Of a stretch of 64,000 bases of DNA, positions 4,967 through 22,705 are shown piece after piece (the stretch's first letter is position 1; the number at the start of each line of letters is the position of its first letter). A program made the translations under genes and the position numbers. The notes below the pieces were generated by a model, which was given only the letters and a program-made list of their open reading frames with translations, did no database searches and had not been told where the DNA came from. This DNA is from Spirochaetota bacterium (GTDB taxonomy: Bacteria; Spirochaetota; UBA4802; JAFGDQ01): contig JAFGSG010000071.1 of NCBI GenBank assembly GCA_016934735.1, positions 27,369 to 91,368 on the forward strand, given 5' to 3'.

Positions 4967-5435
4967 AACATTTCCCCTTCATTCATTTATAATACAAGAA
5001 AATAATTACATAATAAATAAATTGTCAAACTGAATAAAAATTATAACAGAAGATCTTTTGTCTTTTCTTAAAAACATATGCACAATAAATTTGTTTTAAA
5101 GCAAGACAAGATAATATTTAAAAATGTAAAATTACCGGCACTGTTCTATTATAAGCAGTTTCATTATGCTTGACATAAAAAAGGGGTGTTACTTAATTAA
5201 AACATCACTTAGTAATCTGAATCAGCCAACTTTTATATTAATTAAACGGCGAAATATATCAGAATACTATAACCGGTACACTCCATACGGGCAACAACCG
5301 GGGCGCCATTGCGATTATTGTCCAGTTTAAGAAAAACCTATAAAATATATGATGAATTTACTGCATTCTATAATACACTTATTTAATATGAATATTTATT
5401 GAGCTTTGTTAAAATATATACGACAGGGTAAGAAT
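4967..5435. other. Divergent intergenic region upstream of the hydrogenase operon
   Basis: This 469 bp region separates two divergent transcription units. A TTGACA box occurs at 5170-5175 with a poor -10 match about 17 bp later, so any promoter call here is weak. Positions 5271-5330 form a noticeably GC-richer island inside AT-rich DNA, but I recognise no known RNA element in it. Confidence 0.4.
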
Positions 5436-8400
5436 ATGGTCAATGTTACAATTAACGGAAAAGAGTATTCAGTAAAAGAGGATTCGACAATTATTGATGC
5501 AGCGCGGGCAAACGGTATAGATATTCCAGCCCTCGGATACGATCCGCGCGTAAGCCCGCCGAGCAATGTGGAAGCAGCATTTGTTGAAGTCACACTGGGA
5601 GATAAGACAAGATTTATATCCGCAACATCTTCACTTGTTGAAATCGGCATGTCTATCCGGACTGAATCCGATGCCTTAAAAAATTACAGACAGATATATC
5701 TGCAGGCCCTGTTGCGTCATCATTACGGGGACTGTGCCGCTCCATGCGTTCAGCACTGTCCAGCAAATATTGATATTCAGAAATATATTTATCATGTCAG
5801 CTGCGGTAATTTTTTGGAGGCTCTTGCGGTCATTAAAGATAGCAATCCGCTGCCCTCTGTGTGCGGGCGCGTTTGTCCGCATCCGTGCGAAACAGACTGC
5901 AGGCGAAATGCATTGGACGGCGCGGTCAATATAAACGGTATAAAACGATTTGTTGCGGACTGGAATGTATCGCAGCCTAGTCAGTACAAACCCGAGTGCA
6001 GTCCGGATACTGGATATAGGATTGCAGTAGTAGGCGCTGGCCCTGCAGGTCTTACTGCCGCCTGGTTTTTAAGACGGGCTGGTCATCAGGTTACAATATT
6101 TGAAATGCAGGAAGCAGCCGGCGGCATGCTGCGCTGGGGTATACCGTATTACCGGCTTCCGGAAAGAGATTTGGATATAGAAATTAAAGCAATAATTGAT
6201 CTGGGTGTTGATATTAAATATAATAAAGCATTAGGCCGTGATTTTACTCTTGAATCACTTATAAGGGACGGATTTAATGCTGTGTTTACCGCGTTGGGGG
6301 CTCAAAAGGCAACCTCAATGGGTGTCAAAGGCGAAGATCTCGACGGCGTTATGTCCGGTCTGGATTTTCTGGCTAGGCTTGGGCGCAACGGGAAACCGTC
6401 ACTCGGAGAAAGAGTCATAGTATTAGGGGGCGGAAATACTGCTATGGATGCTGCGCGCAGCGCCGTGCGTCTGGGCGTAAAGGATGTTACCATTGTGTAT
6501 CGCAGGAGCAGACAGGAAATGCCTGCTCAAAAGATTGAAGTAGATGAAGCTATAGAAGAAGGGGTCAACTTCCAGTTTTTATCTACGCCCGTGTCGATAC
6601 AAAAGAGCGGGAATATGCTGCAGGTCAACTGTATGAGGATGGTGCTTGGTGAGCCGGATAAAAGCGGCAGGCGCCGCCCGGTCCCGCAGGAAGGTTCTGA
6701 ATTTACCCTTACCGCTTCCACTGTAATTTCCGCAATAGGCCAGTCTGTTGACGGGCAGTGCATCGGCGATACAAGGCTGCTTGATAAATGGGGCAATATC
6801 CTGGTTGATTCAAAATCGATGCAGACTTCCATTCCATGGGTTTTTTCCGGAGGAGACTGTGTCACAGGGCCCGATATAGCCGTAACGGCAATTGGCGCAG
6901 GCAAAAGAGCTGCGCAGTCGATTGATCAGTATGTCAGAACCGGTAAAGTTATTTTACCCGAAGAACCGTATACATGTACAAAAGGAGAATGGAGCAGCCT
7001 TCCGGCTGAAACTTTTAAAGGAGTTAAATACGATAACCGCAGGGAAGTGCCTTCACTGCCTCCAAATACGCGGAAGAATAATTTTGATGAATCATCAATT
7101 ACGTGGGATGCTGAAACAGCAATGGCTGAAGCTTCCCGCTGCCTGGCCTGCGGCTGCACCGAACGATATGATTGCTCACTCCGCACTTATGCGAGCCGGT
7201 ATGGTGTTCAGCACGATACCTCACAGCCTGCCAAACCTTTACCTGTTGACGATAATCATCCTATTATTACAAGGGATACAGGCAAATGTATTTTATGCGG
7301 ACTTTGCCTCAAGGTCTGCCGCGAAATGGAAGGCGTTTCGGCTTTGAGTTTTTATGAAACAAACAACATCCTGACTATCGGCCCGAACGATCACAAACCT
7401 CTTGATATGACCACGTGTGTTTCATGCGGCCATTGTGCAACCGTTTGCCCGACCGGAGCTCTAACTCTTAAGCCAACTCTGCCGGATGTCTACCGCGCGC
7501 TGAAAAATGAGGAACTTACTGTCATTGCCCAGATAGCACCTGCCGTACGCGCTTCATTCGGAGACTATTATGGCATTGACGCAGCACAGGTTATGCCTGT
7601 TTTAAGCTCTTCCCTGAAAAAACTCGGATTCGACTTTGTATTCGATACATGCTGGGCGGCAGATTTAACTATTATGGAAGAAGGAACCGAATTTCTTTCG
7701 CGTCTTGCCAATGGAGGGGTGCTGCCGCAGATGACTTCATGCTGTCCTGCATGGGTCAATTATTGCGAAAAAATGGCTCCTGATATTTTACCGCATCTTT
7801 CTTCGTGTAAATCTCCGCAGCAGATGTTCGGAGCGGTTATGAAGCAGTACTTCACCAAACAGCTTAATGTACGTCCGGAAGCATTATACTTTGTTTCAAT
7901 AATGCCGTGCAACGCCAAAAAATACGAGTCCATGAGACCGGAATTCAGTACGGGTGACACACCGGATGTAGATAAAGTAATGACCACCACGGATATTATC
8001 GATATGTTAAAAGAGAGAAATATTGATCCATGCTGCATTGAACCGGGTCAGGTTGACGCTTTCTTCGGAAAAGTTAGCGGAGCAGGGATTATCTTCGGCG
8101 CAAGCGGAGGTGTAGCCGAAGCTGCCCTGCGTCTTGCTGCAGAGCGTGTAACCGGCAAACAGATGGAAAGTTTTGAATATGAAGGAGTAAGGGGGCTTCA
8201 GGGTGTAAAGGAAAGCGTTGTTACACTGGGAGACTCTAAAGTCCGTCTTGCGGTTGTAAGCGGTCTCCAGAATGCCCAGAAGCTGATTGACCGCATCAGA
8301 GCCGGAGACGCTCCTTATGACCTGATCGAAGTCATGGCATGCCCCGGCGGATGCATTAACGGGTCGGGCAATCCGGCTCCCATGCTGCATGCGGATACGG

Positions 8401-8858
8401 AACAGCGGCTGGAAGTATTATACAGGCTGGATCAGGAAGCTCCGATACGGAAAAGCCAGGACAATCCTGCGGTTCAGGCGATCTACAACAACTGGCTCGG
8501 CGAGCCGTTCTCCAGGATGTCGCATCATTCACTGCATACAACATATCGCAGGCGATCGATGCGTACCCATGATGCACCTTTGGAACCGCTGAAGATAGAA
8601 TCGCATACAATCGGCGTATGCATAGGCACCAACTGCTATGTCAAGGGTTCATGGAAGCTTCTGGAGGGGCTTTCCATTGAATTGAAGCAGCGCGGGTTGT
8701 CCGATCAGTTTCGCGTACAGGCCAGATTCTGTACCGGTGAATGTGAAGCAGGCCCGAATATTGTGATAGGCGGCAGAGTTATACCCATTCAGGACATGAA
8801 TGATTCCGCATCTATTGTAGATGAGCACTTGCTGCCGTTAATTAATAAAAAAAGATAA
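5436..8858 (+). CDS. Multidomain NAD(P)H-linked [FeFe]-hydrogenase with GltD/NfnB-type module
   Basis: This 1140-residue enzyme should couple H2 formation or uptake to NAD(P)H and ferredoxin in the cytoplasm. Domains in order: a [2Fe-2S]-ferredoxin-like fold (1-80) whose cysteine ligands are all replaced; a GltD-type double [4Fe-4S] segment (98-170); FAD site GAGPAG (200-205); NAD(P) site GGGNTAMDAA (331-340) followed by YRRSRQ, the NADPH-type arginine pair; two [4Fe-4S] motifs (about 618-675); the H-cluster domain with TSCCPAW (767-773), MPCNAKKYE (823-831) and MACPGGC (967-973); and a C-terminal NuoE-like domain with Cys 1062, 1067, 1099 and 1103. I choose the ATG at 5436; a TTG at 5406 would only add ten unconserved residues. 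It heads the operon with the small ferredoxin and sensory hydrogenase. The maturases HydEFG are not in the window. Confidence 0.93.
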   Translation: MVNVTINGKEYSVKEDSTIIDAARANGIDIPALGYDPRVSPPSNVEAAFVEVTLGDKTRFISATSSLVEIGMSIRTESDALKNYRQIYLQALLRHHYGDCAAPCVQHCPANIDIQKYIYHVSCGNFLEALAVIKDSNPLPSVCGRVCPHPCETDCRRNALDGAVNINGIKRFVADWNVSQPSQYKPECSPDTGYRIAVVGAGPAGLTAAWFLRRAGHQVTIFEMQEAAGGMLRWGIPYYRLPERDLDIEIKAIIDLGVDIKYNKALGRDFTLESLIRDGFNAVFTALGAQKATSMGVKGEDLDGVMSGLDFLARLGRNGKPSLGERVIVLGGGNTAMDAARSAVRLGVKDVTIVYRRSRQEMPAQKIEVDEAIEEGVNFQFLSTPVSIQKSGNMLQVNCMRMVLGEPDKSGRRRPVPQEGSEFTLTASTVISAIGQSVDGQCIGDTRLLDKWGNILVDSKSMQTSIPWVFSGGDCVTGPDIAVTAIGAGKRAAQSIDQYVRTGKVILPEEPYTCTKGEWSSLPAETFKGVKYDNRREVPSLPPNTRKNNFDESSITWDAETAMAEASRCLACGCTERYDCSLRTYASRYGVQHDTSQPAKPLPVDDNHPIITRDTGKCILCGLCLKVCREMEGVSALSFYETNNILTIGPNDHKPLDMTTCVSCGHCATVCPTGALTLKPTLPDVYRALKNEELTVIAQIAPAVRASFGDYYGIDAAQVMPVLSSSLKKLGFDFVFDTCWAADLTIMEEGTEFLSRLANGGVLPQMTSCCPAWVNYCEKMAPDILPHLSSCKSPQQMFGAVMKQYFTKQLNVRPEALYFVSIMPCNAKKYESMRPEFSTGDTPDVDKVMTTTDIIDMLKERNIDPCCIEPGQVDAFFGKVSGAGIIFGASGGVAEAALRLAAERVTGKQMESFEYEGVRGLQGVKESVVTLGDSKVRLAVVSGLQNAQKLIDRIRAGDAPYDLIEVMACPGGCINGSGNPAPMLHADTEQRLEVLYRLDQEAPIRKSQDNPAVQAIYNNWLGEPFSRMSHHSLHTTYRRRSMRTHDAPLEPLKIESHTIGVCIGTNCYVKGSWKLLEGLSIELKQRGLSDQFRVQARFCTGECEAGPNIVIGGRVIPIQDMNDSASIVDEHLLPLINKKR

Positions 8859-9186: not shown

Positions 9187-10902
9187 ATGAGTGAACCGCT
9201 TATCATTACAAATTCGGCGCGCTGCCGCGACTGCTATCGTTGTGTCCGCAATTGCGACGTAAAAGCTATCAGAGTAAAAAACGGCCAGGCCCAGGTTGTA
9301 CCTGAGTTGTGCATTCTCTGCGGTACCTGCGTCAGGATATGTCCGCAGAAGGCAAAAGGAGTTCGCAGCTCAACCCCGGATGTTAAGGAAGCGCTGAACG
9401 GCGGCAGGAAGCTGATTGCTTCAGTGGCGCCTTCAACTCCGGCCTATTTTACCATGAACTCTTTTGCAGACATGGAGAATGCGCTACTCGCACTGGGCTT
9501 TACTGCAGTTGAAGAAACGGCAGTAGGCGCAGAAGTCGTAAGCGCAGCTCATCGGGAATATGTTGAAAAAAATCCGGATAGAAAACCGGTCATTACGTCT
9601 TCATGTCCTGTTATCGTCAATCTTATCCAGCAGTATTACCCTGACCTTATCCCTCATCTTGCTCCAATTGTTTCTCCCATGATTGCCCATGGGCGCATGC
9701 TGAAGAATAAATACGGTGCTGATGCCTATATTGTTTTCATTGGTCCGTGCATCGCAAAAAAAATGGAAATACTGGATGAACCGGTAGCCGGTGTAATAAA
9801 CGCGGTTATAACTTTTCGAGGTCTTCAGGAATGGTTGATTGAAAAAGAAGTTATAATTAATAAATCTACTGATATTTGCGCTACTACGCATGAAATGAAA
9901 GCAAGACTTTTTCCTGTAGAAGGAGGACTGATCGGCGCAGCCCGTCTTAATACTGATATGCTTAGTGCGCAGATGATAGTCACCAGCGGGCTTGCTGCCT
10001 GCCGGGATGTTTTACGCGATATTGCAGCTGGCCAGCTTAATGCTGATATGGTAGAGCTTATGGCCTGCAGCGGAGGGTGTATTAATGGGCCTGTCATGGC
10101 CGATCTTCCGGGCGGTATCTACCGGTCTCGCCAGAAGATCATAGAATACTTTAAAAATAATCCTTATCATCCTCAGATATCGAAAGATGACTGGCCTCCT
10201 CTTTCACGTACATACCGGAACAGGGAGCAGCCTATACCAGAGTTTACAGAGGAGCAGATTCAGGACATACTGCATCGTGTGAATAAGTATACTCCTGAAG
10301 ATGAGCTGAACTGTCAGGCATGCGGTTATGAAAGCTGTCGTGAGAAAGCAATAGCTACTCTTCGCGGAATGGCGGAATTAACAATGTGTATTCCATATAT
10401 GCGAAGCCGCTCTGAATCACTCAGGCAGGTGGTTATGGATGTTTCTCTTAATCCCGTTATAATTGTTGACTATAACCTGCAGGTCCAGGACATGTCCCCG
10501 TCTGCTGAAGCGCTTTTTAAAGTATCACTTGCAGGGGTGAAAGGAAAATTTCTCTCCGTTCTTATACCTATCATTGACGATTATCTTTCGGTACGTGACA
10601 CAGGCATGCCGGTAATTTCCAAAGTTAATCGTTTCAGCAGCGGCATAGTTGTTGAACAAACCATTGTCCGGGTAGAAGGCCAGGCTCTTCTGGTTGCAAT
10701 AATGCGGGATATTACGGAGGAGGAAAAGGAAAGACAAAAATTTGTAGGATTAAGATCTGAAATGCTTGAGAAAACCAGAGAAGTTGTACAGAAGCAAATG
10801 CGGGTTGCCCATGAGATTGCACACCTTCTTGGGGAGACAACCGCTGAAAGCAAGATGATCGTTTTAAATCTCGCAAGGCTGCTGGAAGAGGAAGAGCAGT
10901 AA
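9187..10902 (+). CDS. hydS: Sensory [FeFe]-hydrogenase with PAS domain
   Basis: This 571-residue protein matches the putative H2-sensing group C hydrogenases. Residues 10-60 hold two [4Fe-4S] motifs (CRDCYRCVRNC and CILCGTCVRIC). The H-cluster domain follows with TSSCPVIV (137-144), IGPCIAKK (185-192) and MACSGGC (292-298). In catalytic enzymes the first motif is TSCCP; here the first cysteine, used for proton transfer, is serine, which fits a sensor rather than a fast catalyst. An extra iron-sulfur motif CQACGYESC lies at 376-384, then a PAS domain (about 410-510) and a C-terminal coiled coil. Its stop overlaps the start of the SpoIIE-type phosphatase by one base, so the two are translationally coupled and probably act in one signalling route. 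Confidence 0.92.
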   Translation: MSEPLIITNSARCRDCYRCVRNCDVKAIRVKNGQAQVVPELCILCGTCVRICPQKAKGVRSSTPDVKEALNGGRKLIASVAPSTPAYFTMNSFADMENALLALGFTAVEETAVGAEVVSAAHREYVEKNPDRKPVITSSCPVIVNLIQQYYPDLIPHLAPIVSPMIAHGRMLKNKYGADAYIVFIGPCIAKKMEILDEPVAGVINAVITFRGLQEWLIEKEVIINKSTDICATTHEMKARLFPVEGGLIGAARLNTDMLSAQMIVTSGLAACRDVLRDIAAGQLNADMVELMACSGGCINGPVMADLPGGIYRSRQKIIEYFKNNPYHPQISKDDWPPLSRTYRNREQPIPEFTEEQIQDILHRVNKYTPEDELNCQACGYESCREKAIATLRGMAELTMCIPYMRSRSESLRQVVMDVSLNPVIIVDYNLQVQDMSPSAEALFKVSLAGVKGKFLSVLIPIIDDYLSVRDTGMPVISKVNRFSSGIVVEQTIVRVEGQALLVAIMRDITEEEKERQKFVGLRSEMLEKTREVVQKQMRVAHEIAHLLGETTAESKMIVLNLARLLEEEEQ

Positions 10903-12077
10903 TGAGGCAGTTTGTCGAATTCTCGTGGATAAGTCTGAACAAGGACGGAGAGGAATTATGCGGGGATTCGGTAATCATCCAGTCCTCCCGCGATTCATTT
11001 GTGGCAGTATTGTCGGACGGGCTCGGAAGCGGCGTAAAGGCAAGCATATTATCAACCCTGACAGCGGAAATCGCAGCCCGGATGTTCGATTCCGGTGGAA
11101 CCGTTGAGGAAGTGATGCAGACTCTCGTAGAAACGCTTCCGGAATGCTCCGTTCGGAAGCTAGCCTATGCTACCTTTGCGGTTTTAACCGTTGATCATGG
11201 CACGGAAGCACATCTGGTAGAGTTTGACAGTCCTTCACTCATCCTGGTGCGCAACGGAAAATTAGCTGAATTATCATTTGAAGAGCATCAGATTAAAGGC
11301 CGCGTCATCCGCGAGGCGCGTTTTGCATTGCAGGACAATGACTATATGGTACTCATAAGTGATGGTTATGAACATGCGGGACTGGGAGGAATATACCGTC
11401 TCGGATGGGGATGGAAGAATGTAGCCACATCAGTCCAGCGTTTTGTACAGACCGGCATGGATACAGACAGGCTTTCTGATGCACTTTCGCGTACCTGCAT
11501 GAAATTATACAGCGGAAAGCCGGGAGATGATTCCACAGTTATCTGCATGAAAGTGCGGCCGGCGGTATCTGTGTGCATCCTGACAGGCCCTCCAGGCAAC
11601 AGAGAACTGGACAGCTTTGCGGTTAACAGGCTAATGTCTGCAGAGGGAGATAAAATAATTTGCGGGGGCAGCACAGCACAAATGGTCGCCCGGGAACTTA
11701 AGCTGAAGCTTGAGGTCGAATGGGTGCCGCCATGGAAAGTGAGCGGGGAAAAGCCCAGAAAAAAAGGTTCCCCGCCGACAGCAAAATTAGAGGGTATAAA
11801 TTTTGTTACTGAAGGCATTCTGACTATCGGCCAGGCTGTAGAACTGCTGGAGAAATGTAAAACAATATATGAACTTCCCGGCGATAACGATGCCGCAACC
11901 AGATTAGCGCGTTATTTGCTTGCTGCAGACGATATTTATCTAATCGTGGGTACTGCTATAAATCCTAACCAGGTTGCAGACCTTATACGCGGCGAGCCGA
12001 TGAGGATGGTATATATACGTGAACTCGTTCAAAATCTGACAAAGAGAAATAAACAGGTTACAGTGGAAAGGATTTAG
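10902..12077 (+). CDS. SpoIIE-type PP2C serine phosphatase coupled to the hydrogenase sensor
   Basis: Residues 1-225 of this 391-residue protein form a PP2C/SpoIIE phosphatase: SDGLGSG is the first metal-binding motif, followed by ISDGYE and by GDDSTVI near 215. The remaining 165 residues are a separate domain that I do not recognise, with GPPGNRELD at its start and GDNDAATRLA near the end. It begins on the last base of the sensory hydrogenase stop codon. SpoIIE-type phosphatases next to PAS-containing [FeFe]-hydrogenases are a recurring arrangement in anaerobes. The likely role is to change a phosphoprotein in response to H2 or redox state; the target is unknown and no anti-sigma partner is visible here. 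Confidence 0.87.
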   Translation: MRQFVEFSWISLNKDGEELCGDSVIIQSSRDSFVAVLSDGLGSGVKASILSTLTAEIAARMFDSGGTVEEVMQTLVETLPECSVRKLAYATFAVLTVDHGTEAHLVEFDSPSLILVRNGKLAELSFEEHQIKGRVIREARFALQDNDYMVLISDGYEHAGLGGIYRLGWGWKNVATSVQRFVQTGMDTDRLSDALSRTCMKLYSGKPGDDSTVICMKVRPAVSVCILTGPPGNRELDSFAVNRLMSAEGDKIICGGSTAQMVARELKLKLEVEWVPPWKVSGEKPRKKGSPPTAKLEGINFVTEGILTIGQAVELLEKCKTIYELPGDNDAATRLARYLLAADDIYLIVGTAINPNQVADLIRGEPMRMVYIRELVQNLTKRNKQVTVERI

Positions 12078-14281: not shown

Positions 14282-14878
14282 ATGAAAGCGGATACATATA
14301 AATTAAAAGACTTTTCGTCTTTTACAAAAGACATTATAAACGTAAGCGGAGAAAAGATTAACAATTGCTATCAGTGTAGAAAATGCACTGCCGGCTGTCC
14401 AATAACGTTCGCTATGGATATTCTGCCTCATCAGATCATCAAATATATTCAGCTTGGATTTGAGGAGAAAGTTTTAACCTCAAAGACGATATGGCTGTGC
14501 GCAGCATGCGAGACATGCGGGACAAGGTGCCCTAATGAAATTGACCTTGCGGCAATGATGGATGCGTTGAGGCAAAGAGCTCTGGCAACACAATACAGGA
14601 ACCGGATTGGAGAAAAGGGAACATCGGTCTTTCATCAAGAGTTTTTGTCTTCAGTAAAGTCAAACGGCCGGGTATATGAAGCAATGATGATGGCTAAATC
14701 GAGAATGAGGTCTGGACACTTTTTGACTTATCTCCTGAGAGGCGACTGGATAGCTGATATTAAGCTTTTTATTCCTATGCTTTTAAAAGGAAAGATGGGC
14801 ATGTTGCCGCACAGGATCAGGAATAGAAAAGAAATAAAGAAATTATTTAAAAAATTTGCAATAGGACGGAAGGTTTGA
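14282..14878 (+). CDS. hdrC: Heterodisulfide reductase subunit C homologue
   Basis: This 198-residue protein has two complete [4Fe-4S] motifs, CYQCRKCTAGCP (about residues 30-41) and CAACETCGTRCP (about 75-86), in the spacing of HdrC. The C-terminal half is basic and helical. HdrC passes electrons between HdrA and HdrB. It is the first gene of hdrC-hdrB-hdrA-mvhD-metV-metF, has an AAGGA ribosome binding site, and ends 3 bp before hdrB. In this context the complex most likely feeds a methylene-tetrahydrofolate reductase, not a CoM-S-S-CoB reductase. Confidence 0.93.
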   Translation: MKADTYKLKDFSSFTKDIINVSGEKINNCYQCRKCTAGCPITFAMDILPHQIIKYIQLGFEEKVLTSKTIWLCAACETCGTRCPNEIDLAAMMDALRQRALATQYRNRIGEKGTSVFHQEFLSSVKSNGRVYEAMMMAKSRMRSGHFLTYLLRGDWIADIKLFIPMLLKGKMGMLPHRIRNRKEIKKLFKKFAIGRKV

Positions 14879-14881
14879 TCT

Positions 14882-15742
14882 GTGAACACGAAAGTATCAT
14901 ATTATCCAGGTTGTTCCCTGCGCGGTACAGGGAGGGAATACGGAGAGTCAGCCGAGGCGGTGTTTAAATCGTTAGGCACGGAACTTGTTGAGCTTCCGGA
15001 CTGGAGCTGCTGCGGTGCTTCATCTGCTCACAGTGAAAACAAGGGCCTTGCGGTGGAGATAGCTGCGCGGAATCTGATTCTGGCAAAAGAGAGCGGTCTA
15101 AAGGATATGGTCATTCCATGCTCAGCCTGCTTCCAGAGGACTAAAGTTGCCGAGTATGAATTAAAGGAAAATCCGCAGGCATATCCGGATATCAGTTATA
15201 ACAGTGAAGTCAATATTCCGGATATTGTGAGTTTCGTACATAATAAAATCGGTATTGAAGCGATAAAAAAAAATGTTATTAAAAAGCTTACTGGCTTAAA
15301 AGTCGTAAGCTATTACGGTTGCCTTATTTCACGCCATCCGAAAATAACAGGAGCCGGAAATTTTGAAAATCCGACTGAGATGGATACAATTCTTGAAGCT
15401 CTGGGAACTGAAGTGATAGACTGGGGATATAAGACAGACTGTTGCGGCGGAAGCCTTGCCATCTCGCAAGCTGAAATTATGCAGAAGCTTGTAGGCAATC
15501 TTTACGACAAAGCGCTCGAAGCAGGTGCTGAGTGCATTGCTGTCTGCTGTCCGCTGTGCCATGCAAATCTCGATATGTATCAGAAGGAAATATCAAAAAG
15601 ATTTAAAAAAAATTATAATACTCCCATTTTTTATTTTACTGAACTCATAGGCCTTGCGATAGGGGAAAAAGATATTATAAAATGGCTAAAAAGACATCTT
15701 ACTGATCCGATTAAATTGCTTAAAGAGAAGAATTTATTATAA
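14882..15742 (+). CDS. hdrB: Heterodisulfide reductase subunit B homologue
   Basis: The 286-residue protein carries both cysteine-rich CCG domains that in HdrB hold the paired non-cubane iron-sulfur clusters. The first has PGCSLRG, SCCGASS and PCSACF; the second has YYGCLIS, TDCCGGS and CCPLCH. All cysteines of both motifs are present. It starts with GTG 3 bp after hdrC. In methanogens this subunit reduces the heterodisulfide; in the acetogen-type MetVF complex its partner is unsettled, and it may simply relay electrons. Confidence 0.93.
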   Translation: MNTKVSYYPGCSLRGTGREYGESAEAVFKSLGTELVELPDWSCCGASSAHSENKGLAVEIAARNLILAKESGLKDMVIPCSACFQRTKVAEYELKENPQAYPDISYNSEVNIPDIVSFVHNKIGIEAIKKNVIKKLTGLKVVSYYGCLISRHPKITGAGNFENPTEMDTILEALGTEVIDWGYKTDCCGGSLAISQAEIMQKLVGNLYDKALEAGAECIAVCCPLCHANLDMYQKEISKRFKKNYNTPIFYFTELIGLAIGEKDIIKWLKRHLTDPIKLLKEKNLL

Positions 15743-15756
15743 AAGGAAATTTTAAA

Positions 15757-15867
15757 CTCACCTCCTAATCCCCGGAGGGGGCCAACGGTTGTGAAGATTT
15801 GAAGGCGGTTGCTGGGATTTATTCCAAGATGGTGCCCCCTTTAGGGGTATAGGGGGCCGAGAGCGGA
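15757..15867. repeat. Palindromic intergenic element inside the hdr-met operon
   Basis: The two ends of this about 110-bp GC-rich stretch are imperfect inverted copies: the left arm (about 15761-15782) and the reverse complement of the right arm (15833-15856) share the pattern CC.CCTA..CCCC...GGGGGC. It fills the gap between hdrB and hdrA in otherwise AT-rich spacer DNA. It looks like a small non-autonomous palindromic element and could form RNA structure in the operon transcript. Confidence 0.6.
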
Positions 15868-15904
15868 AAAGCTAATTTAATTTTTTACAAATGAGATATT
15901 GATT

Positions 15905-18900
15905 ATGTCTGAAAATAATATAATACAATTAGACGATAAAAGAAAACCCGGCACTGGCCTGGGTGCTGTAATGGTTGTAGGCGGCGGTATTGCCGGCATG
16001 CAGACTGCTATCGATCTCGCGGACAGCGGATTCAAGGTGTATCTTGTTGAGGAAAAGACGCATATAGGCGGAAGAATGTCCCAGCTTGACAAGACTTTCC
16101 CGACAAACGACTGTGCCATGTGTATTATTTCGCCCAAGCTTATCGAAGTTGACAAGAATATAAATATTGAGATACTTACAAACACTGAAGTTATGGTTGT
16201 TGAAGGACAAGCCGGGAATTTCAGCGTAAAGTTAAAAGAAAATCCCAGATATGTTGATATAGCTAAATGCACGTCATGCGGGGATTGTATTAAAGTGTGT
16301 CCTGTGCTTGTGCCGAATGAATTCAACACCGGGTTCGATCAGAGAAACGCGGTTTACAAGCTTTATCCTCAGGGAATACCGAGCACGTACGCAATCAGTA
16401 AAGCGGACAGGGCGCCGTGCGGCATAACATGCCCTGCCGGGATCAATGTACAGGGATATGTTGCGCTTACATCAAACGGCAAATTCAATGAAGCTTACGA
16501 TCTAATCGTTGAGAGAAATCCTTTCCCTTCCGTATGCGGGCGTGTGTGCCATCATCCATGCGAAGGAGTGTGCAACAGGGGCGAGATAGATGAGCCTGTG
16601 GCTATCAACAATCTGAAAAGATATAACGCGGATTGGGTAAGACAGAAGCGCAAAGAGGAAGGCTTTAAAGTTGAGAAAGCTGAAATCGATCCAATGAAGC
16701 CAAAGATAGCTATTGTAGGCGGAGGACCTTCGGGATTGACTGCTGCACGCGATCTTGTGCTCGACGGGTATCCTGTGACAGTGTTTGAAGCGCAGAGCAA
16801 ACTTGGCGGAGCAATGAGATGGGGTATTCCCAGATACAGGCTCCCTGACGAAATGCTGGACTGGGACATTCAGAACATCATCGATCTTGGAGTTGAGGTT
16901 AAACTGCAAAGCGCGCTGGGTAAAGATTTTACGATCAAATCTCTAAAGAATGAAGATTACAAAGCAGTGTATCTCGGCATGGGACTTCCGAAGGCAAGGA
17001 AGCTTAACATCAAAGGCGCGGATTCAGAGGGCGTACTTTGGGGCATGGATTTTCTCACTGAAGTGAATATGGGGAAATCGCCTAAAGTCGGGAAGAAAGT
17101 CGTGGTAATCGGCGGCGGCAATGTCGCCATTGATGCGGCAATGACAGCGAAAAGACAGGGCGCAGAAGATGTCACAATAGTCTCACTCGAATGCCGTGAA
17201 GAAATGCCGGCTCACGAATGGGAGATCGAGGACGCTGTAAGCGAAGGCATTAAGCTTAATCCTTCATGGGGCCCGGATGAAATAACCGCAAGCGACGGAA
17301 AAGTAACGGGGATAAAACTAATTCAGTGCACATGTGTATTTGATGAAAGCCAGAGGTTTAATCCCCAGTACAACCCGGAATGCGGTGAGGAACTTAAAGC
17401 TGATACAATTATTATAACAATAGGACAAGCTGCCGATCTGAACTGGGTGAATGACGACAGCAGTATTGAACTCGCAAGCGGAGGCATAAAAGCTGATAAT
17501 CTGACTCTGGCTACAAACATTGAAGGCGTGTTTGCAGGCGGTGACATCGCATACGGGCCTAAGTCCGTTGTTGAAGCAATAGCTCAGGGTCATGAAGCCG
17601 CGGAGAGCATACGCAGATTCATCGAAGGAAAAGATTTATCCGCAGGCCGTGAAAAAGAAGATAAGCCTGCGGCAAAAGTTCCGAAGGACAGGCCGTATTA
17701 TAAGAAATCGAGAACAATAGCTGAAAACATACCTGTAAAAGACAGGCAGGACAATTATAATGAGATAGCGCGTACATTCACGCAGGAAATGGCAATTGAA
17801 GAAGCAAAACGCTGTCTTGCATGCGGCATATGCAGCGAGTGTATGCAGTGCGTTGCAGCGTGCCTGCCAGGCGCAATCAATCACAACGAAATAGTAAAAG
17901 AGACCGTGATTAATGTGGGCGCTGTTGTAGCCGCTCCCGGCTTTGATCCATTTGATCCTTCGGGAAAGCCCGAGTATGGCTACGGAAGATATGCCAACGT
18001 TATCACATCCATGGAAATGGAGCGGACATTCAGCGCATCAGGTCCGTATCAGGGCCATGTGTCAAGGCCTTCTGATCACAAGCTGCCGGCGAGAATTGCA
18101 TGGATACAATGCGTTGGTTCGCGGGATTCTTCAATAGGCAAGGATTATTGTTCATCTGTCTGCTGTACATACGCTACAAAACAGGCATCGCTCGCCAAAG
18201 ACCATTACGGCGACCAGGTAAATGCAACTATCTTTCTTAACGATTTAAGGACATTCGGTAAAGGATTCGACCGCTATTACAACAATGCGGTGAAGAAATA
18301 CGGCGTAAGATACATAAACAGTTTTATATCGACAATTAAAGAAATTCCGGGAAGCAAGAATCTGTTAATTAAATATATCAATGAACAGGGCGGGCTAGCA
18401 GAAGAAGAATTTGATATGGTTGTGCTTTCGGTCGGGCTTGTCCCTTCAGCGTCTTCCGCAAGGCTCGCGAAAGCTCTGGAAATTGAGCTCAATGAATTCG
18501 GATTTACGAAGCCTCAGCCGCTAAGGCCTGGCGAAACATCCAGAAAAGGCATATTTGTTGCAGGCGTTTTCGAGAATCCGAAAGACATACCCGAAAGTGT
18601 AATGAGCGCATCGAGCGCAGCTGCCCTTTCATCCGAATTGATTTCGGCTTCAAGGGGGTCTCTCACTGAGCACAAGGATTATCCACCGGAAAAAGATATT
18701 AGCAAAGACGGCGTGCGTATCGGAGTATTCGTATGCCATTGCGGGATAAACATTGCCGGAGTAGTCGACGTGCCTGCTGTTACCGAATATGCAAAAACAT
18801 TGCCGAATGTGGTTTTCACTGACGATAATTTATTTACATGCTCTACAGATACGCAGGAAAAGATCAAGAAAGCAGTTGAAGAGCATAATCTTACAAGGGT

Positions 18901-20374
18901 GATAGTTGCTTCATGCACTCCGAGGACTCATGAGCCGCTTTTTCAGGATACAATAAGAGAAGCCGGGCTTAATAAATATTTGTTCGAAATGGCGAATATA
19001 CGTGATCAATGTTCGTGGGTCCACCAGAGCGATCATCCAAAGGCTACTGAAAAGGCAAAGGATCTTGTAAGGATGGCTGTTTCAAGATCAGCTACGCTTG
19101 AACCGCTGTATGAACTCCCGTTCGAGATCGATCAGAAAACGCTTGTAATCGGCGGAGGCGTATCCGGGATGACTGCCGCGCTCGGGCTCGCGAAGCAGGG
19201 ATTCGAATCATATCTTGTTGAGTGCTCGGATAAGCTGGGCGGGCATGCTCTAAAGATTCATTATACTCTCGAAGGCATTGAGCCGAAGAATTTTATCAGC
19301 GAACTGATCGAGTCAGTAAAGTCAAATGCAAAGATCAGGGTTCTGCTGAATACAAAGATCAGGAATACATCTGGTCATGTGGGTAATTTTACAACACAGA
19401 TTGAATCTTCCGGGAGTAAAAGCGAGATAAGGCACGGTGCTGTCATTGTTGCTACAGGCGGAGAAGAATATAAACCGACCGAATATCTTTATGGACAGAA
19501 TAAGGATGTTGTTACTCAGGTTATGCTTGAAGATATTATAGCAAAAACTCCGGATGTCCTTAAATCTGTGAAAAATGTTGTTATAATTCAGTGCGTTGGT
19601 TCGCGCGATGACGAGCATCCCTATTGCAGCCGTTACTGCTGTTCTGCAGCGTTGAAGAACGCGATTTGCATTAAAGAGATGAATGAGGGCGCAAATATTT
19701 ACATTCTTTATCGCGACATCAGGGCATACGGTTTTAAAGAACTGTATTATAAAAAAGCGAGAGAGATGGGAATAACTTTTATAAGATATGATGAGAAGAT
19801 AAAACCGGAAGTATCCGTAAACGGAAACGGGCTTGTTGTGAATGTTTATGATAAAGAACTGAAAGTGAATTTTGAAATTGAAAGTGATATAGTCGCATTA
19901 AGCGCAGCGATAAGGCCGGACCCCAAGGGGGAAAGCATTAAACAAATTTTTAAGCTTCCCGGTGATCAGGATGGCTTTTTTCTTGAGGCGCATATGAAGC
20001 TCAGGCCGCTTGATTTCGCAAGCATGGGAGTTTTCCTGTGCGGGCTCGCGCATTCGCCGAAGCTGCTCGATGAGAGCATAGCTCAGGCAAAGGGCGCTGT
20101 TTCCAGGGCATGCACTGTTCTTTCCAAGAAAGAGATGATGGTTGGCGGTATTGTGTCTCACGTCAATCCTGACAAATGTGTAGCATGCCTTACATGCGTA
20201 AGGGTATGCCCTTACGATGTGCCGAAGATAAGCGCTGACGGAGTAGCGGAGATTTCGAGCGCATCATGCCAGGGCTGCGGCAGCTGTGTGGCAGCATGCC
20301 CGAGAAAGGCGATCGAAGTGTATCATTATAAGGATGATCAGATATTGAGCAAATGCGAGGCATTGTATGTGTAA
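15905..20374 (+). CDS. hdrA: Giant HdrA flavoprotein with inserted GltD/NfnB-type NAD(P)H module
   Basis: This 1489-residue protein is far longer than the usual HdrA (about 650). Order: HdrA N-terminal FAD domain with GGGIAGM and the DCAMCIISPK cysteine block (20-90); [4Fe-4S] CTSCGDCIKVC (122-132); a GltD-type insert with cysteine pairs (172-225), FAD site GGGPSG (272-277) and NAD(P) site GGGNVAIDAA (403-412); an HdrA C-terminal half beginning with CLACGICSECMQC; then a second HdrA copy from about 940, with FAD site GGGVSGM near 1085 and two terminal [4Fe-4S] motifs (CVACLTCVRVC, CQGCGSCVAAC). The NAD(P) site is followed by SLECREEMPA, lacking the arginine pair of NADPH-specific relatives. 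I choose ATG 15905 over the TTG at 15899. It probably is the flavin core that bifurcates electrons from NAD(P)H. Confidence 0.93.
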   Translation: MSENNIIQLDDKRKPGTGLGAVMVVGGGIAGMQTAIDLADSGFKVYLVEEKTHIGGRMSQLDKTFPTNDCAMCIISPKLIEVDKNINIEILTNTEVMVVEGQAGNFSVKLKENPRYVDIAKCTSCGDCIKVCPVLVPNEFNTGFDQRNAVYKLYPQGIPSTYAISKADRAPCGITCPAGINVQGYVALTSNGKFNEAYDLIVERNPFPSVCGRVCHHPCEGVCNRGEIDEPVAINNLKRYNADWVRQKRKEEGFKVEKAEIDPMKPKIAIVGGGPSGLTAARDLVLDGYPVTVFEAQSKLGGAMRWGIPRYRLPDEMLDWDIQNIIDLGVEVKLQSALGKDFTIKSLKNEDYKAVYLGMGLPKARKLNIKGADSEGVLWGMDFLTEVNMGKSPKVGKKVVVIGGGNVAIDAAMTAKRQGAEDVTIVSLECREEMPAHEWEIEDAVSEGIKLNPSWGPDEITASDGKVTGIKLIQCTCVFDESQRFNPQYNPECGEELKADTIIITIGQAADLNWVNDDSSIELASGGIKADNLTLATNIEGVFAGGDIAYGPKSVVEAIAQGHEAAESIRRFIEGKDLSAGREKEDKPAAKVPKDRPYYKKSRTIAENIPVKDRQDNYNEIARTFTQEMAIEEAKRCLACGICSECMQCVAACLPGAINHNEIVKETVINVGAVVAAPGFDPFDPSGKPEYGYGRYANVITSMEMERTFSASGPYQGHVSRPSDHKLPARIAWIQCVGSRDSSIGKDYCSSVCCTYATKQASLAKDHYGDQVNATIFLNDLRTFGKGFDRYYNNAVKKYGVRYINSFISTIKEIPGSKNLLIKYINEQGGLAEEEFDMVVLSVGLVPSASSARLAKALEIELNEFGFTKPQPLRPGETSRKGIFVAGVFENPKDIPESVMSASSAAALSSELISASRGSLTEHKDYPPEKDISKDGVRIGVFVCHCGINIAGVVDVPAVTEYAKTLPNVVFTDDNLFTCSTDTQEKIKKAVEEHNLTRVIVASCTPRTHEPLFQDTIREAGLNKYLFEMANIRDQCSWVHQSDHPKATEKAKDLVRMAVSRSATLEPLYELPFEIDQKTLVIGGGVSGMTAALGLAKQGFESYLVECSDKLGGHALKIHYTLEGIEPKNFISELIESVKSNAKIRVLLNTKIRNTSGHVGNFTTQIESSGSKSEIRHGAVIVATGGEEYKPTEYLYGQNKDVVTQVMLEDIIAKTPDVLKSVKNVVIIQCVGSRDDEHPYCSRYCCSAALKNAICIKEMNEGANIYILYRDIRAYGFKELYYKKAREMGITFIRYDEKIKPEVSVNGNGLVVNVYDKELKVNFEIESDIVALSAAIRPDPKGESIKQIFKLPGDQDGFFLEAHMKLRPLDFASMGVFLCGLAHSPKLLDESIAQAKGAVSRACTVLSKKEMMVGGIVSHVNPDKCVACLTCVRVCPYDVPKISADGVAEISSASCQGCGSCVAACPRKAIEVYHYKDDQILSKCEALYV

Positions 20375-20404
20375 ATCTTGTAAATACTGGTAGTGTGTGG
20401 AGAG

Positions 20405-20509
20405 TCAGTTATTATAAAGATCGTCCCTTATGCCCTCACCTGACGGCGCTATCGCTCGGCCACCCTCCTGCCTTTCGGGTGGGTGAGGGCACAGCTCGTT
20501 CTTAACTGA
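20405..20509. repeat. Palindromic element between hdrA and mvhD
   Basis: Outer inverted repeats TCAGTTA (20405-20411) and TAACTGA (20503-20509) enclose inner repeats TGCCCTCACC (20431-20440) and GGTGAGGGCA (20482-20491), with a GC-rich centre. The element is about 105 bp, non-coding, and inside the operon. It resembles a small MITE or a REP-like repeat; its folding could affect expression of mvhD-metVF. Confidence 0.6.
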
Positions 20510-20628
20510 GTCCGTTTCCCTTTTTCATAGTACCGGTATTTAGGGGGGGCAAAGCTGCAAGGACTATCTATATTATATCGATTTAAGAGTAAGTTTTACT
20601 GTATGTGAATATCAGGAGTGTATTATAA

Positions 20629-21054
20629 ATGAGCAATAATTACGAACCGAAGATCATAGCTTTCTGCTGCAGGTACTGCGCGTATACTGCTGCTGATCTT
20701 GCGGGTTCCATGAGACTTGAATATCCTTCCAACATAAGAGTTGTACAGCTTTTATGTACAGGAAGGATTGATGTGCTTCATGTGCTTAAGGCATTTGAAC
20801 AGGGCGCTGATGCTGTATATGTCGCAGGATGCGAACCTGGTGACTGTCATTTCCTGGAAGGAAATTACAGGGCTGTAAAAAGAATCGCATACGCAAAGAA
20901 CCTGTTAAAGGAGATCGGACTCGAACCTGAACGCCTTGAATTTTTTCATATAGGTGCTTCGGAAGGCCCCAGATTTGCGGAAGCAGCAAAGGAAATGACG
21001 GATCGGGCGCTGAAGCTCGGCCCGAATCCCTTGAGAAAAAAGCAGGGAGAATAA
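20629..21054 (+). CDS. mvhD: MvhD/FlpD-type hydrogenase iron-sulfur subunit
   Basis: The 141-residue protein has the MvhD pattern: FCCRYCAYTAADLAGS near the N-terminus, LLCTGRID in the middle and VAGCEPGDCHF, with cysteines that bind a [2Fe-2S] cluster. MvhD joins electron-donating modules to HdrA. No MvhAG or FlxAB hydrogenase or dehydrogenase subunits accompany it, as in acetogens where it connects HdrABC with MetFV. Start ATG follows AGGAG by 11 bp. Confidence 0.93.
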   Translation: MSNNYEPKIIAFCCRYCAYTAADLAGSMRLEYPSNIRVVQLLCTGRIDVLHVLKAFEQGADAVYVAGCEPGDCHFLEGNYRAVKRIAYAKNLLKEIGLEPERLEFFHIGASEGPRFAEAAKEMTDRALKLGPNPLRKKQGE

Positions 21055-21060
21055 TATTTT

Positions 21061-21088
21061 GTGGGGGCGAATAATTATTCGCTTCTGC
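21061..21088 (+). repeat. Intergenic hairpin with GCGAATAATTATTCGC core
   Basis: Positions 21067-21082 are a perfect palindrome, and the flanks (GTGGGG and TTCTGC) extend the stem when read as RNA with G-U pairs. The same GCGAAT...ATTCGC core occurs in the hairpin at 55698-55721, suggesting a dispersed repeat family. Here it lies between mvhD and metV in the operon transcript. Confidence 0.6.
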
Positions 21089-21113
21089 GCAACATCGTTA
21101 TAGAGGTATAATT

Positions 21114-21782
21114 ATGATAGTAGGAGATCGAAAGCCGATAGAGGAAATAAAGGAGATGCTTGCTCCATATAAAAAAATTCTGCTCGTAGGATGCGGAACG
21201 TGCATAAGCGTGTGCATGACCGGCGGCGAAAAAGAAGTTGGCATTCTCGCAAGCGAATTGCGGATGATTTCTGAACTTGAAAAGAAAGACTGGGAAATAT
21301 CCGAGACAACTATTCAAAGGCAATGTGAAAGGGAGTATATTGAGCCGCTTAAAGAGCAGTTTGAAAAAGCGGATGTGGTAATGTCAATGGCCTGCGGTGT
21401 GGGCATACAATACATGGCAGAAGTATTTCCCGAAAAAATAGTGCTGCCTGCTGTAAATACTACGTTCTACGGCACAAACGTAAAAGAAGGCGAATGGCAG
21501 GAACGATGCGCCGGATGCGGCGATTGCGTTCTGGATAAAACGCTCGGCATTTGCCCTGTTGCGCGCTGTTCAAAAGGACTTTATAACGGGCCGTGCGGAG
21601 GTACTGACAATGGTAAATGCGAGGTAAACAAGGACCTGGACTGCGCATGGTACCTGATATATAACAGGATGAAGGAACACGGCAAACTGGACATGCTTGA
21701 TGAAATAATACCTGCACGAAGCTGGAAAACGAGTCTTCACGGCGGGCCGAGAAAAAGAGTTAGGGAGGATGCGCAAAAATGA
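21114..21782 (+). CDS. metV: Methylenetetrahydrofolate reductase partner subunit
   Basis: The 222-residue protein matches the MetV family (methylene-tetrahydrofolate reductase C-terminal domain proteins). It has VGCGTCISVC near residue 24, MACGVG in the middle, and a cysteine-rich tail with CAGCGDC, CPVARCSKG, GPCGG and C(E)VNKDLDC that should bind zinc and/or iron-sulfur clusters. MetV forms the core reductase with MetF and connects it to HdrABC-MvhD. It overlaps metF by four bases and has a GAGG ribosome binding site. Confidence 0.93.
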   Translation: MIVGDRKPIEEIKEMLAPYKKILLVGCGTCISVCMTGGEKEVGILASELRMISELEKKDWEISETTIQRQCEREYIEPLKEQFEKADVVMSMACGVGIQYMAEVFPEKIVLPAVNTTFYGTNVKEGEWQERCAGCGDCVLDKTLGICPVARCSKGLYNGPCGGTDNGKCEVNKDLDCAWYLIYNRMKEHGKLDMLDEIIPARSWKTSLHGGPRKRVREDAQK

Positions 21783-22705
21783 AAGCGAACAGCAATCTGG
21801 AAAAGATACTGGAAAGAGGCGAATTCGCGGTCACGGGAGAGCTCGGACCGCCTAAAGGCAATGATGTTGAAGTAATTAAGAAGAAGGCACAGTTCCTTAA
21901 AGGTAATGTCGATGCTGTAAACATTACGGATAATCAGACAGCTGTTGTGAGGATGTCGAGCATTGCAGCGTCGAAGCTCCTCCTCGATCTGGGCGTTGAG
22001 CCGGTTATGCAGATGGTTGTACGGGACAGGAACAGGATCGCTATACAGAGCGACATACTGGGCGCAACTGCACTCGGGCTGAAAAACATGCTGTGCTTAA
22101 GCGGCGACCACCAGACTTTCGGGAACCAGCCGGACGCGAAAAATGTTTTTGATATTGATTCAATACAGCTTATAGGCCTTGTTAAAAGACTGAGAGATGA
22201 GAAAAAAATGCTGAACCTTGAAGATGAAATAGAAGGCGATGTAGGCATTTTTATCGGAGCTGCCGCGAATCCGTTTGCCGAACCTTTCGGGTTCAGACCA
22301 TTAAGGCTTAGAAAGAAGGTGGCTGCTGGTGTTAATTTTATTCAAACCCAGTGCATATACGATATGAAAATATTCAAAGAGTTTATGAAGGCTGTATGCG
22401 ATATGGGTCTTGATCAGAAGGTTCATATACTCGCAGGAGTCACACCGCTTAAATCAGCAGGAATGACTAAGTACATGGCAAACAATGTTCCCGGGATAAT
22501 TATACCGGAAGAACTTGTTAAGAGAATGGCGGGCGTAGCAAAGGAAAAAGCTGCCGAGGAAGGAATTAAAATCTGCGTTGAGCAAATACAGGAATTGCGC
22601 GAAATTAAAGGCGTACACGGCATTCATCTAATGGCTATTGAGTGGGAGTCGCGCGTTCCAGAGATAGTATCGCAGGCTAAGCTCCTGCCGAGGCCGGTCG
22701 TTTAA
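21779..22705 (+). CDS. metF: Methylenetetrahydrofolate reductase
   Basis: The 308-residue FAD-dependent TIM-barrel enzyme reduces 5,10-methylene-tetrahydrofolate to methyl-tetrahydrofolate. Recognisable blocks are VTGELGPPKG at the N-terminus, VDAVNITDNQ, CLSGDH around residue 105, FIGAAANPFAEP and FIQTQCIYD. It overlaps metV by ATGA, so the two subunits are coupled. The genes upstream indicate that electrons come through HdrABC-MvhD and not directly from NADH as in E. coli. The product could feed methionine synthesis or acetyl-CoA synthesis; CODH/ACS genes are not in this window. Confidence 0.95.
   Translation: MKANSNLEKILERGEFAVTGELGPPKGNDVEVIKKKAQFLKGNVDAVNITDNQTAVVRMSSIAASKLLLDLGVEPVMQMVVRDRNRIAIQSDILGATALGLKNMLCLSGDHQTFGNQPDAKNVFDIDSIQLIGLVKRLRDEKKMLNLEDEIEGDVGIFIGAAANPFAEPFGFRPLRLRKKVAAGVNFIQTQCIYDMKIFKEFMKAVCDMGLDQKVHILAGVTPLKSAGMTKYMANNVPGIIIPEELVKRMAGVAKEKAAEEGIKICVEQIQELREIKGVHGIHLMAIEWESRVPEIVSQAKLLPRPVV

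Follow-up and report, generated by a model that had tools for sequence, protein, structure and literature searches.

The closest described relative of the operon considered here, hdrC-hdrB-hdrA-mvhD-metV-metF at positions 14282-22705 of a 64,000-nucleotide stretch of bacterial DNA (the window), is the HdrCBA-MvhD-MetVF methylene-tetrahydrofolate (methylene-THF) reductase of Moorella thermoacetica. According to the excerpts that represent the literature cited throughout, the two have in common the gene set, a tandem HdrA of about 1489 residues with a GltD module in unit 1, and an NADH site on HdrA (PMC9430772, PMC8760232). The Hdr-type methylene-THF reductase of Sporomusa ovata shares the gene set, but its HdrA, at 101 kDa, is without a GltD module, unlike that of the window (PMC9430772). 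In marine Chloroflexi (DscP3) the same complex has been inferred from hdrABC-mvhD-metVF genes, which differ in an hdrC-hdrB fusion and in the two-component system genes that flank metF_1 (PMC5736913). HdrA9-11 of ANME-1 are likewise HdrA proteins with a GltD/NfnB-type insertion (PMC9012536), and in the Sporomusa Stn transhydrogenase the StnC subunit likewise has a GltD module that feeds into the chain of clusters in a larger, electron-bifurcating enzyme, although Stn is NADPH-linked, combines the module with StnAB and with parts resembling NuoG and FdhF, and includes neither HdrA nor MetVF (PMC10482914).

Set beside these systems, the operon is a known kind of enzyme in a new host lineage. With metV and metF clustered with hdrA, hdrB, hdrC, and mvhD, a GltD module between the halves of HdrA unit 1, and a nucleotide site that reads as NADH-type, its predicted product is a Type IV (Hdr-type) methylene-THF reductase of the Moorella subtype. 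An earlier note on this DNA had named the six genes as a Moorella-type operon, and that description stands: the genes are intact, their families are recognized by Pfam and NCBIfam, and the same order is found in Moorella stamsii. All six lie on the + strand with no internal stops in the open reading frame (ORF) listing.

14282-14878, + strand: hdrC, 198 residues; Fer4_8 match (5.3e-10); two CxxCxxCxxxC motifs, at residues 29 and 73; 45% identity to M. stamsii HdrC
14882-15742, + strand: hdrB, 286 residues; CCG match (6.9e-25); both of its CCG motifs (noncubane cluster), at residues 11 and 147, are intact
15905-20374, + strand: hdrA, 1489 residues; Pyr_redox_2 (4.4e-57) and Fer4_20 (1.1e-21); matches to HdrA2 and GltD-type NAD(P)-binding families
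20629-21054, + strand: mvhD, 141-residue FlpD-type iron-sulfur adaptor; FlpD match (4.8e-49) covering the whole profile; 62% identity to M. stamsii
21114-21782, + strand: metV, 222 residues, iron-sulfur partner of MetF; DUF5981 match (4.9e-36); 51% identity to M. stamsii
21779-22705, + strand: metF, 308 residues, catalytic subunit of methylene-THF reductase; MTHFR match (1e-38); 59% identity to M. stamsii

MetF scores 133.4-133.8 bits against PF02219, for which the cut-off is 24, and is thus a methylene-THF reductase homologue. The hdrA ORF is also open from a TTG at 15899, although the ATG at 15905 is the likelier start. hdrC and hdrB are 3 bases apart, metV and metF share 4 bases, and the operon has two long intergenic gaps, one of them between hdrA and mvhD; this gap holds a GC-rich stretch (20395-20560) with 2 partial copies elsewhere in the genome, no inverted repeat, and no additional copies within the window.

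The organization of HdrA is central to what follows. Mapped by phmmer onto the solved methanogen HdrA (5odc), the protein consists of two fused HdrA units, and GltD is inserted into the first, a detail absent from the earlier note. Unit 2 comprises an N-terminal domain and a C-terminal two-cluster ferredoxin domain; the inserted ferredoxin domain of 5odc is matched by unit 1 only.

15968-16414, + strand: first half of HdrA unit 1 (FAD fold); residues 22-174 correspond to 5odc 146-298; first ferredoxin-domain cluster motif at 16268-16300 (residue 122)
16415-17644, + strand: GltD module for NAD(P)H, NfnB-like; includes a Fer4_20 cluster region and folds for FAD and pyridine nucleotide; aligned to 9n5u, 9bov, 8oh5, 4ylf, and 5vj7
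17183-17212, + strand: nucleotide-specificity stretch SLECREEMPA, with Glu against the YRR of NADP-linked relatives
17822-18694, + strand: second half of HdrA unit 1; residues 643-860 correspond to 5odc 293-510; second ferredoxin-domain cluster motif at 17831-17863 (residue 643)
18710-20371, + strand: HdrA unit 2; residues 937-1089 and 1344-1488 correspond to 5odc 4-156 and 503-650; motifs at residues 1425 and 1455

GltD, at about 400 residues, thus splits the inserted ferredoxin domain of unit 1 between the cluster motifs that start at residues 122 and 643. HdrA contains four copies of the CxxCxxCxxxC motif and as many GGGxxG/A motifs; three of the latter are taken as FAD sites and one as an NAD(P) site. 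The gene set, the domain order, the intact cluster motifs, the insertion point, the NADH-type motif, and the pathway genes described below are read directly from the DNA. The inserted domain of methanogen HdrA is the ferredoxin-binding site, and the HdrA of M. thermoacetica has an identical make-up that includes the interrupting GltD domain (PMC9430772). The NAD(P)H module claimed for HdrA in the earlier note is therefore present (Fer4_20 plus Pyr_redox_2, inside unit 1), but its supposed novelty falls away, since besides M. thermoacetica it occurs in all 11 Moorella-genus genomes searched, as full-length GltD-HdrA proteins 86-100% identical to that of M. stamsii, and in many other bacteria.

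The nucleotide bound by this module can be approached through one short stretch. Where the window HdrA has SLE, all five solved GltD-type chains compared (9n5u, 9bov, 8oh5, 4ylf, and 5vj7) have YRR, the arginines of which presumably bind the 2'-phosphate. Moorella HdrA copies have CLE in 11 of 12 cases, the twelfth (L187) having gone unmatched by the search pattern. We read the window HdrA as NADH-linked because its SLE resembles the Moorella CLE, because HdrA is the site of NADH oxidation in the M. thermoacetica complex (PMC8760232), and because StnC, the YRR-bearing chain of 8oh5, binds NADPH (PMC10482914).

Conservation of the locus argues that the arrangement is not due to chance. Our kinship search covered 59 genomes and further comparisons covered 46 genomes of the window's order. 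A full-length HdrA match was present in 8 of the 59 genomes, the window's own included, and the search of related genomes proposed in the earlier note returned the identical six-gene order in 5 others of the order (L042-L046), as well as in M. stamsii (L080). Subunits in L042, L043, and L044 are 54-91% identical to those of the window, and in L045 and L046 hdrC is long and diverged; in L048 metV is present with no metF detected, and in L047 neither was detected. Every subunit of the M. stamsii operon is 40-62% identical to its counterpart in the window (HdrA, 51% over residues 9-1488). The window thus resembles Moorella-genus genomes in gene order, as read in M. stamsii, and in the NADH-type motif, and differs in this level of identity, in the two long intergenic gaps, and in host phylum.

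The host genome (G000) is 3.55 Mb in 150 contigs and 90.85% complete, with the window on contig 98. In an RpoB tree it falls with the family member G001, two genomes of the same phylum (G048 and G257), and a Spirochaetes metagenome-assembled genome (MAG), nested inside, in one starred group, which points to Spirochaetota as the host phylum. Carbon monoxide dehydrogenase (CODH) and acetyl-CoA synthase (ACS), the presence of which the earlier note had suggested checking, are both encoded elsewhere in the genome. ACS/CdhC and formyl-THF synthetase occur in one copy each, both on contig 137, in a cluster that also encodes FolD and a RACo-type activator, two each of CdhD-type proteins, pterin-binding proteins, and CooC-type ATPases, and a 634-residue CODH (Prismane/CODH family). 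The rest of the methyl branch is therefore not absent, and judged on ACS, CODH, formyl-THF synthetase, FolD, CdhD-type proteins, and pterin-binding methyltransferase-type proteins, the remaining Wood-Ljungdahl set appears to be complete elsewhere in the genome.

These observations are probably best explained by an NADH-linked confurcating complex, or one running in reverse, in which a third carrier, a quinol or similar, acts at HdrBC. We infer that the subunits form a complex, and we infer its electron route, ports, third carrier, and direction, as follows. NADH would be oxidized at the GltD module of HdrA; electrons would pass from the GltD clusters through the interrupted ferredoxin domain of unit 1 to the HdrA flavins, and from there by way of MvhD and MetV to MetF, where methylene-THF would be reduced. 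The third carrier, a quinol or similar, would most likely dock at HdrBC, such that NADH (low potential) and quinol (high potential) would be confurcated onto methylene-THF, with the flow reversed during methyl-group oxidation. Because MvhD-MetV-MetF trios occur without adjoining Hdr genes, in this genome (L038) and in G008 (L173), the gene contexts suggest that MetVF docks via MvhD, leaving HdrBC for the third carrier. Menaquinol has been proposed as co-donor for the M. thermoacetica complex (PMC13040438, PMC13391211). In favor of a quinol, the genome encodes a MenA-like prenyltransferase on contig 78, although its score is below cut-off.

Several points weigh against this explanation. MvhD of S. 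ovata was mostly in the membrane fraction (PMC9430772), so MvhD rather than HdrBC may face the membrane. The M. thermoacetica complex gave no methylene-THF reduction with NADH, and NADH added to the S. ovata assay was not oxidized (PMC9430772, PMC8760232). Quinone synthesis in the genome rests on prenyltransferase matches under curated cut-offs. Finally, the best matches of HdrB and HdrC to quinone enzymes lie far below cut-off in NCBIfam; for HdrB the top matches are the MFR SdhE anchor (150.8 bits) and CoB_CoM_SS_B (144.8 bits), each far under its cut-off.

The alternative that survives best is that the complex works mainly in reverse, oxidizing methyl-THF in a host that oxidizes acetate or methylated compounds, with NAD and a quinone or cytochrome pool receiving the electrons. 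We regard this as a serious possibility, albeit one that on balance we doubt; it differs from the NADH- and quinol-linked complex favored above in direction only, and both could hold together. Nothing in the sequence fixes direction. T. phaeum runs the pathway both ways (PMC6895022), and a MetVF of this genome that lies in a membrane cytochrome cluster would suit the disposal of electrons from methyl-THF. That pair is on contig 78 (L037 6390-9872), where the same run of genes encodes, upstream of it, a small protein with a CxxCH motif, a membrane subunit resembling TmcC/HmcE (NCBIfam 164 bits, cut-off 240), a 4Fe-4S dicluster protein, and a cytochrome with four CxxCH motifs. Among the 46 genomes of the order, 9 conserve the order TmcC-like subunit, iron-sulfur protein, cytochrome, and MetV, as does G257, from another family (L163-L170, L223). 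These counts are lower bounds, because the contexts covered were those of G257 and of the nine MetV matches closest within the order; MetF follows MetV in all of these clusters but L166. We consider the contig 78 cluster a candidate membrane-linked methylene-THF reductase. No description of such a TmcC-like/cytochrome/MetVF cluster was found in the literature searched, a weak negative given that only open-licence papers were covered; PMC10608574 mentions a copy of MetF next to a hydrogenase that contains cytochrome c3.

It is unlikely that MetVF acts mainly as a ferredoxin-dependent Type II enzyme, with Hdr-MvhD as a loosely attached side module for some other reaction, even though the genome has two more MetVF pairs without adjoining Hdr genes. 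The six-gene order is common to the window's order and to Moorella, and across the wider family MetV is a frequent neighbor of such HdrA genes. Out of at least 581 relatives in public genomes, a scan retained the best 80. The HdrA survey covered 87 loci, of which 73 gave full-length proteins within the length and score limits, and 74 were classified with the window; MetV lies within 4 kb on the same strand for 41 of these 74 GltD-HdrA genes and is not so placed for 23, the other 10 having contexts cut by contig ends. The third MetVF of the genome, on contig 87 (L038 1670-9405), has just an MvhD gene upstream and genes for glutamate-synthase-like proteins downstream.

Self-contained bifurcation, in which exergonic electron transfer from NAD(P)H to methylene-THF would drive the endergonic reduction of ferredoxin, was the possibility raised in the earlier note; it is now disfavored, and we think it quite unlikely. 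HdrA-type flavoproteins of methanogens do bifurcate to ferredoxin (recounted in PMC9430772), and coupling to ferredoxin has been assumed for MetFV-HdrABC (PMC10553843). However, ferredoxin is reported not to be the second carrier in M. thermoacetica (2026 papers PMC13040438 and PMC13391211), the docking domain is interrupted by GltD, and HdrA unit 2 is without a match to that domain. The position of GltD within the ferredoxin-docking domain would itself provide a structural reason for the non-use of ferredoxin.

The nucleotide type of the module was examined across the 74 GltD-HdrA proteins by alignment columns, with 27 being of the E type, 45 of the YRR type, and 2 of neither. That the window complex is NADPH-linked is very unlikely: although YRR is found in these 45 proteins, the closest relative G002 among them, the window has SLEC, acidic at that position as in Moorella, whose HdrA oxidizes NADH. 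An association between the NADH-type motif and MetVF adjacency was considered and rejected; in uncut contexts it appeared strong (22/24 versus 19/40, Fisher p 0.0004), yet it failed once related rows were paired (1.4 independent pairs in the same direction, 0 in the opposite one, 7.6 without difference; median p 1). The history of the module was then followed with a tree that comprises 87 HdrA scaffolds, with GltD excised, and that leaves out L098, because of its short length, and L129, another operon of the NuoEF type, the boundary of which was not located. The E/YRR label changes at least 15 times on this tree and the module label (GltD, none, or NuoEF) 9 times, and for each of the two GltD types none of 500 shuffles gave a value as low. 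Since they are more clustered than chance predicts, the nucleotide-type and module labels are inherited, yet they switch frequently.

One such switch can be followed in detail. The window is sister to G002 on the scaffold tree (support 94), and the six subunits of the two operons are 63-91% identical (MetV 91%, MetF 81%). Over HdrA residues 421-540, G002 is only 25-33% identical to the window, versus 52-75% for the more distant G037, and the best 200-residue excess of mismatches in G002 HdrA spans residues 354-555 with a score of 57, compared with a maximum of 33 in 2000 shuffles. G002 HdrA (L044 7147-11616) has YRR where the window has SLEC. It thus appears that the segment of about residues 354-555 in G002 has been replaced, exchanging an NADH-type for an NADPH-type motif; a donor was not found among the 46 genomes of the order, in which the best match was 54%. 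L081 has two divergent operons, one of the E type and one of the YRR type.

In some Type IV-like operons, NuoE/NuoF and a NuoG-N part stand in for GltD within HdrA. The second operon of G008 (L050 1872-11586) encodes, in order, HdrC, HdrB, an HdrA N-terminal piece, NuoE, NuoF, a NuoG-N-HdrA fusion, MvhD, MetV, and MetF, and its NuoEF insertion comes, as far as the sequence can be read, after the first ferredoxin-domain motif. L129 2-9066, from a Desulfobacteraceae MAG, carries an HdrA-N part, NuoF, and a further HdrA part, followed by mvhD, metV, and metF. We tentatively suggest, rating it a little short of even, that the ferredoxin-docking domain of Type IV HdrA is a socket for interchangeable dehydrogenases, be these NADH-type GltD, NADPH-type GltD, or NuoE-NuoF-NuoG.

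Several further observations concern related modules and reading frames. One in-frame TGA is read through in 22 of the 73 full-length HdrA rows (e.g., L056, L071, and L081), at the second Cys of an NDCAMC motif in the rows inspected, and MvhD is split by an in-frame stop in L042, L043, and L055; these are as expected for selenocysteine, to judge from the reading frames. A second GltD-HdrA of this genome, on contig 44 (L036 543-13824), is 38% identical and is split into two frames by an in-frame TAA; its neighbors encode electron-transfer flavoprotein (ETF)-like subunits, HdrB/HdrC-like proteins, and an acyl-CoA ligase, and the locus is perhaps an ETF-linked Hdr complex. Within the window, 5406-8858 encodes a 1150-residue protein that combines a YRR-type GltD module with a group A [FeFe] hydrogenase (TIGR02512 461 bits, cut-off 406), and the region after it (9187-12077) holds a gene for a PAS protein that is [FeFe]-hydrogenase-like, together with an ORF resembling, by inspection of its sequence, a phosphatase. 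In G008 the gene for a related GltD protein is about 19 kb away from the operon.

In sum, this locus extends a known enzyme to a lineage that seems to be an uncultured group of spirochetes. The Type IV methylene-THF reductase complex was described in 2014 (PMC13040438), and its third carrier decides the energy gain of these acetogens at the methylene-THF step. What merits most attention is how the NAD(P)H module varies, together with the candidate cytochrome-linked second reductase of the genome. The sister operons of G000 and G002, alike save for the nucleotide segment, would make up a natural NADH/NADPH pair. If the socket model is true, NADH would stand in for ferredoxin in these reductases, and the third carrier would have to come in at another site, HdrBC being the likeliest.

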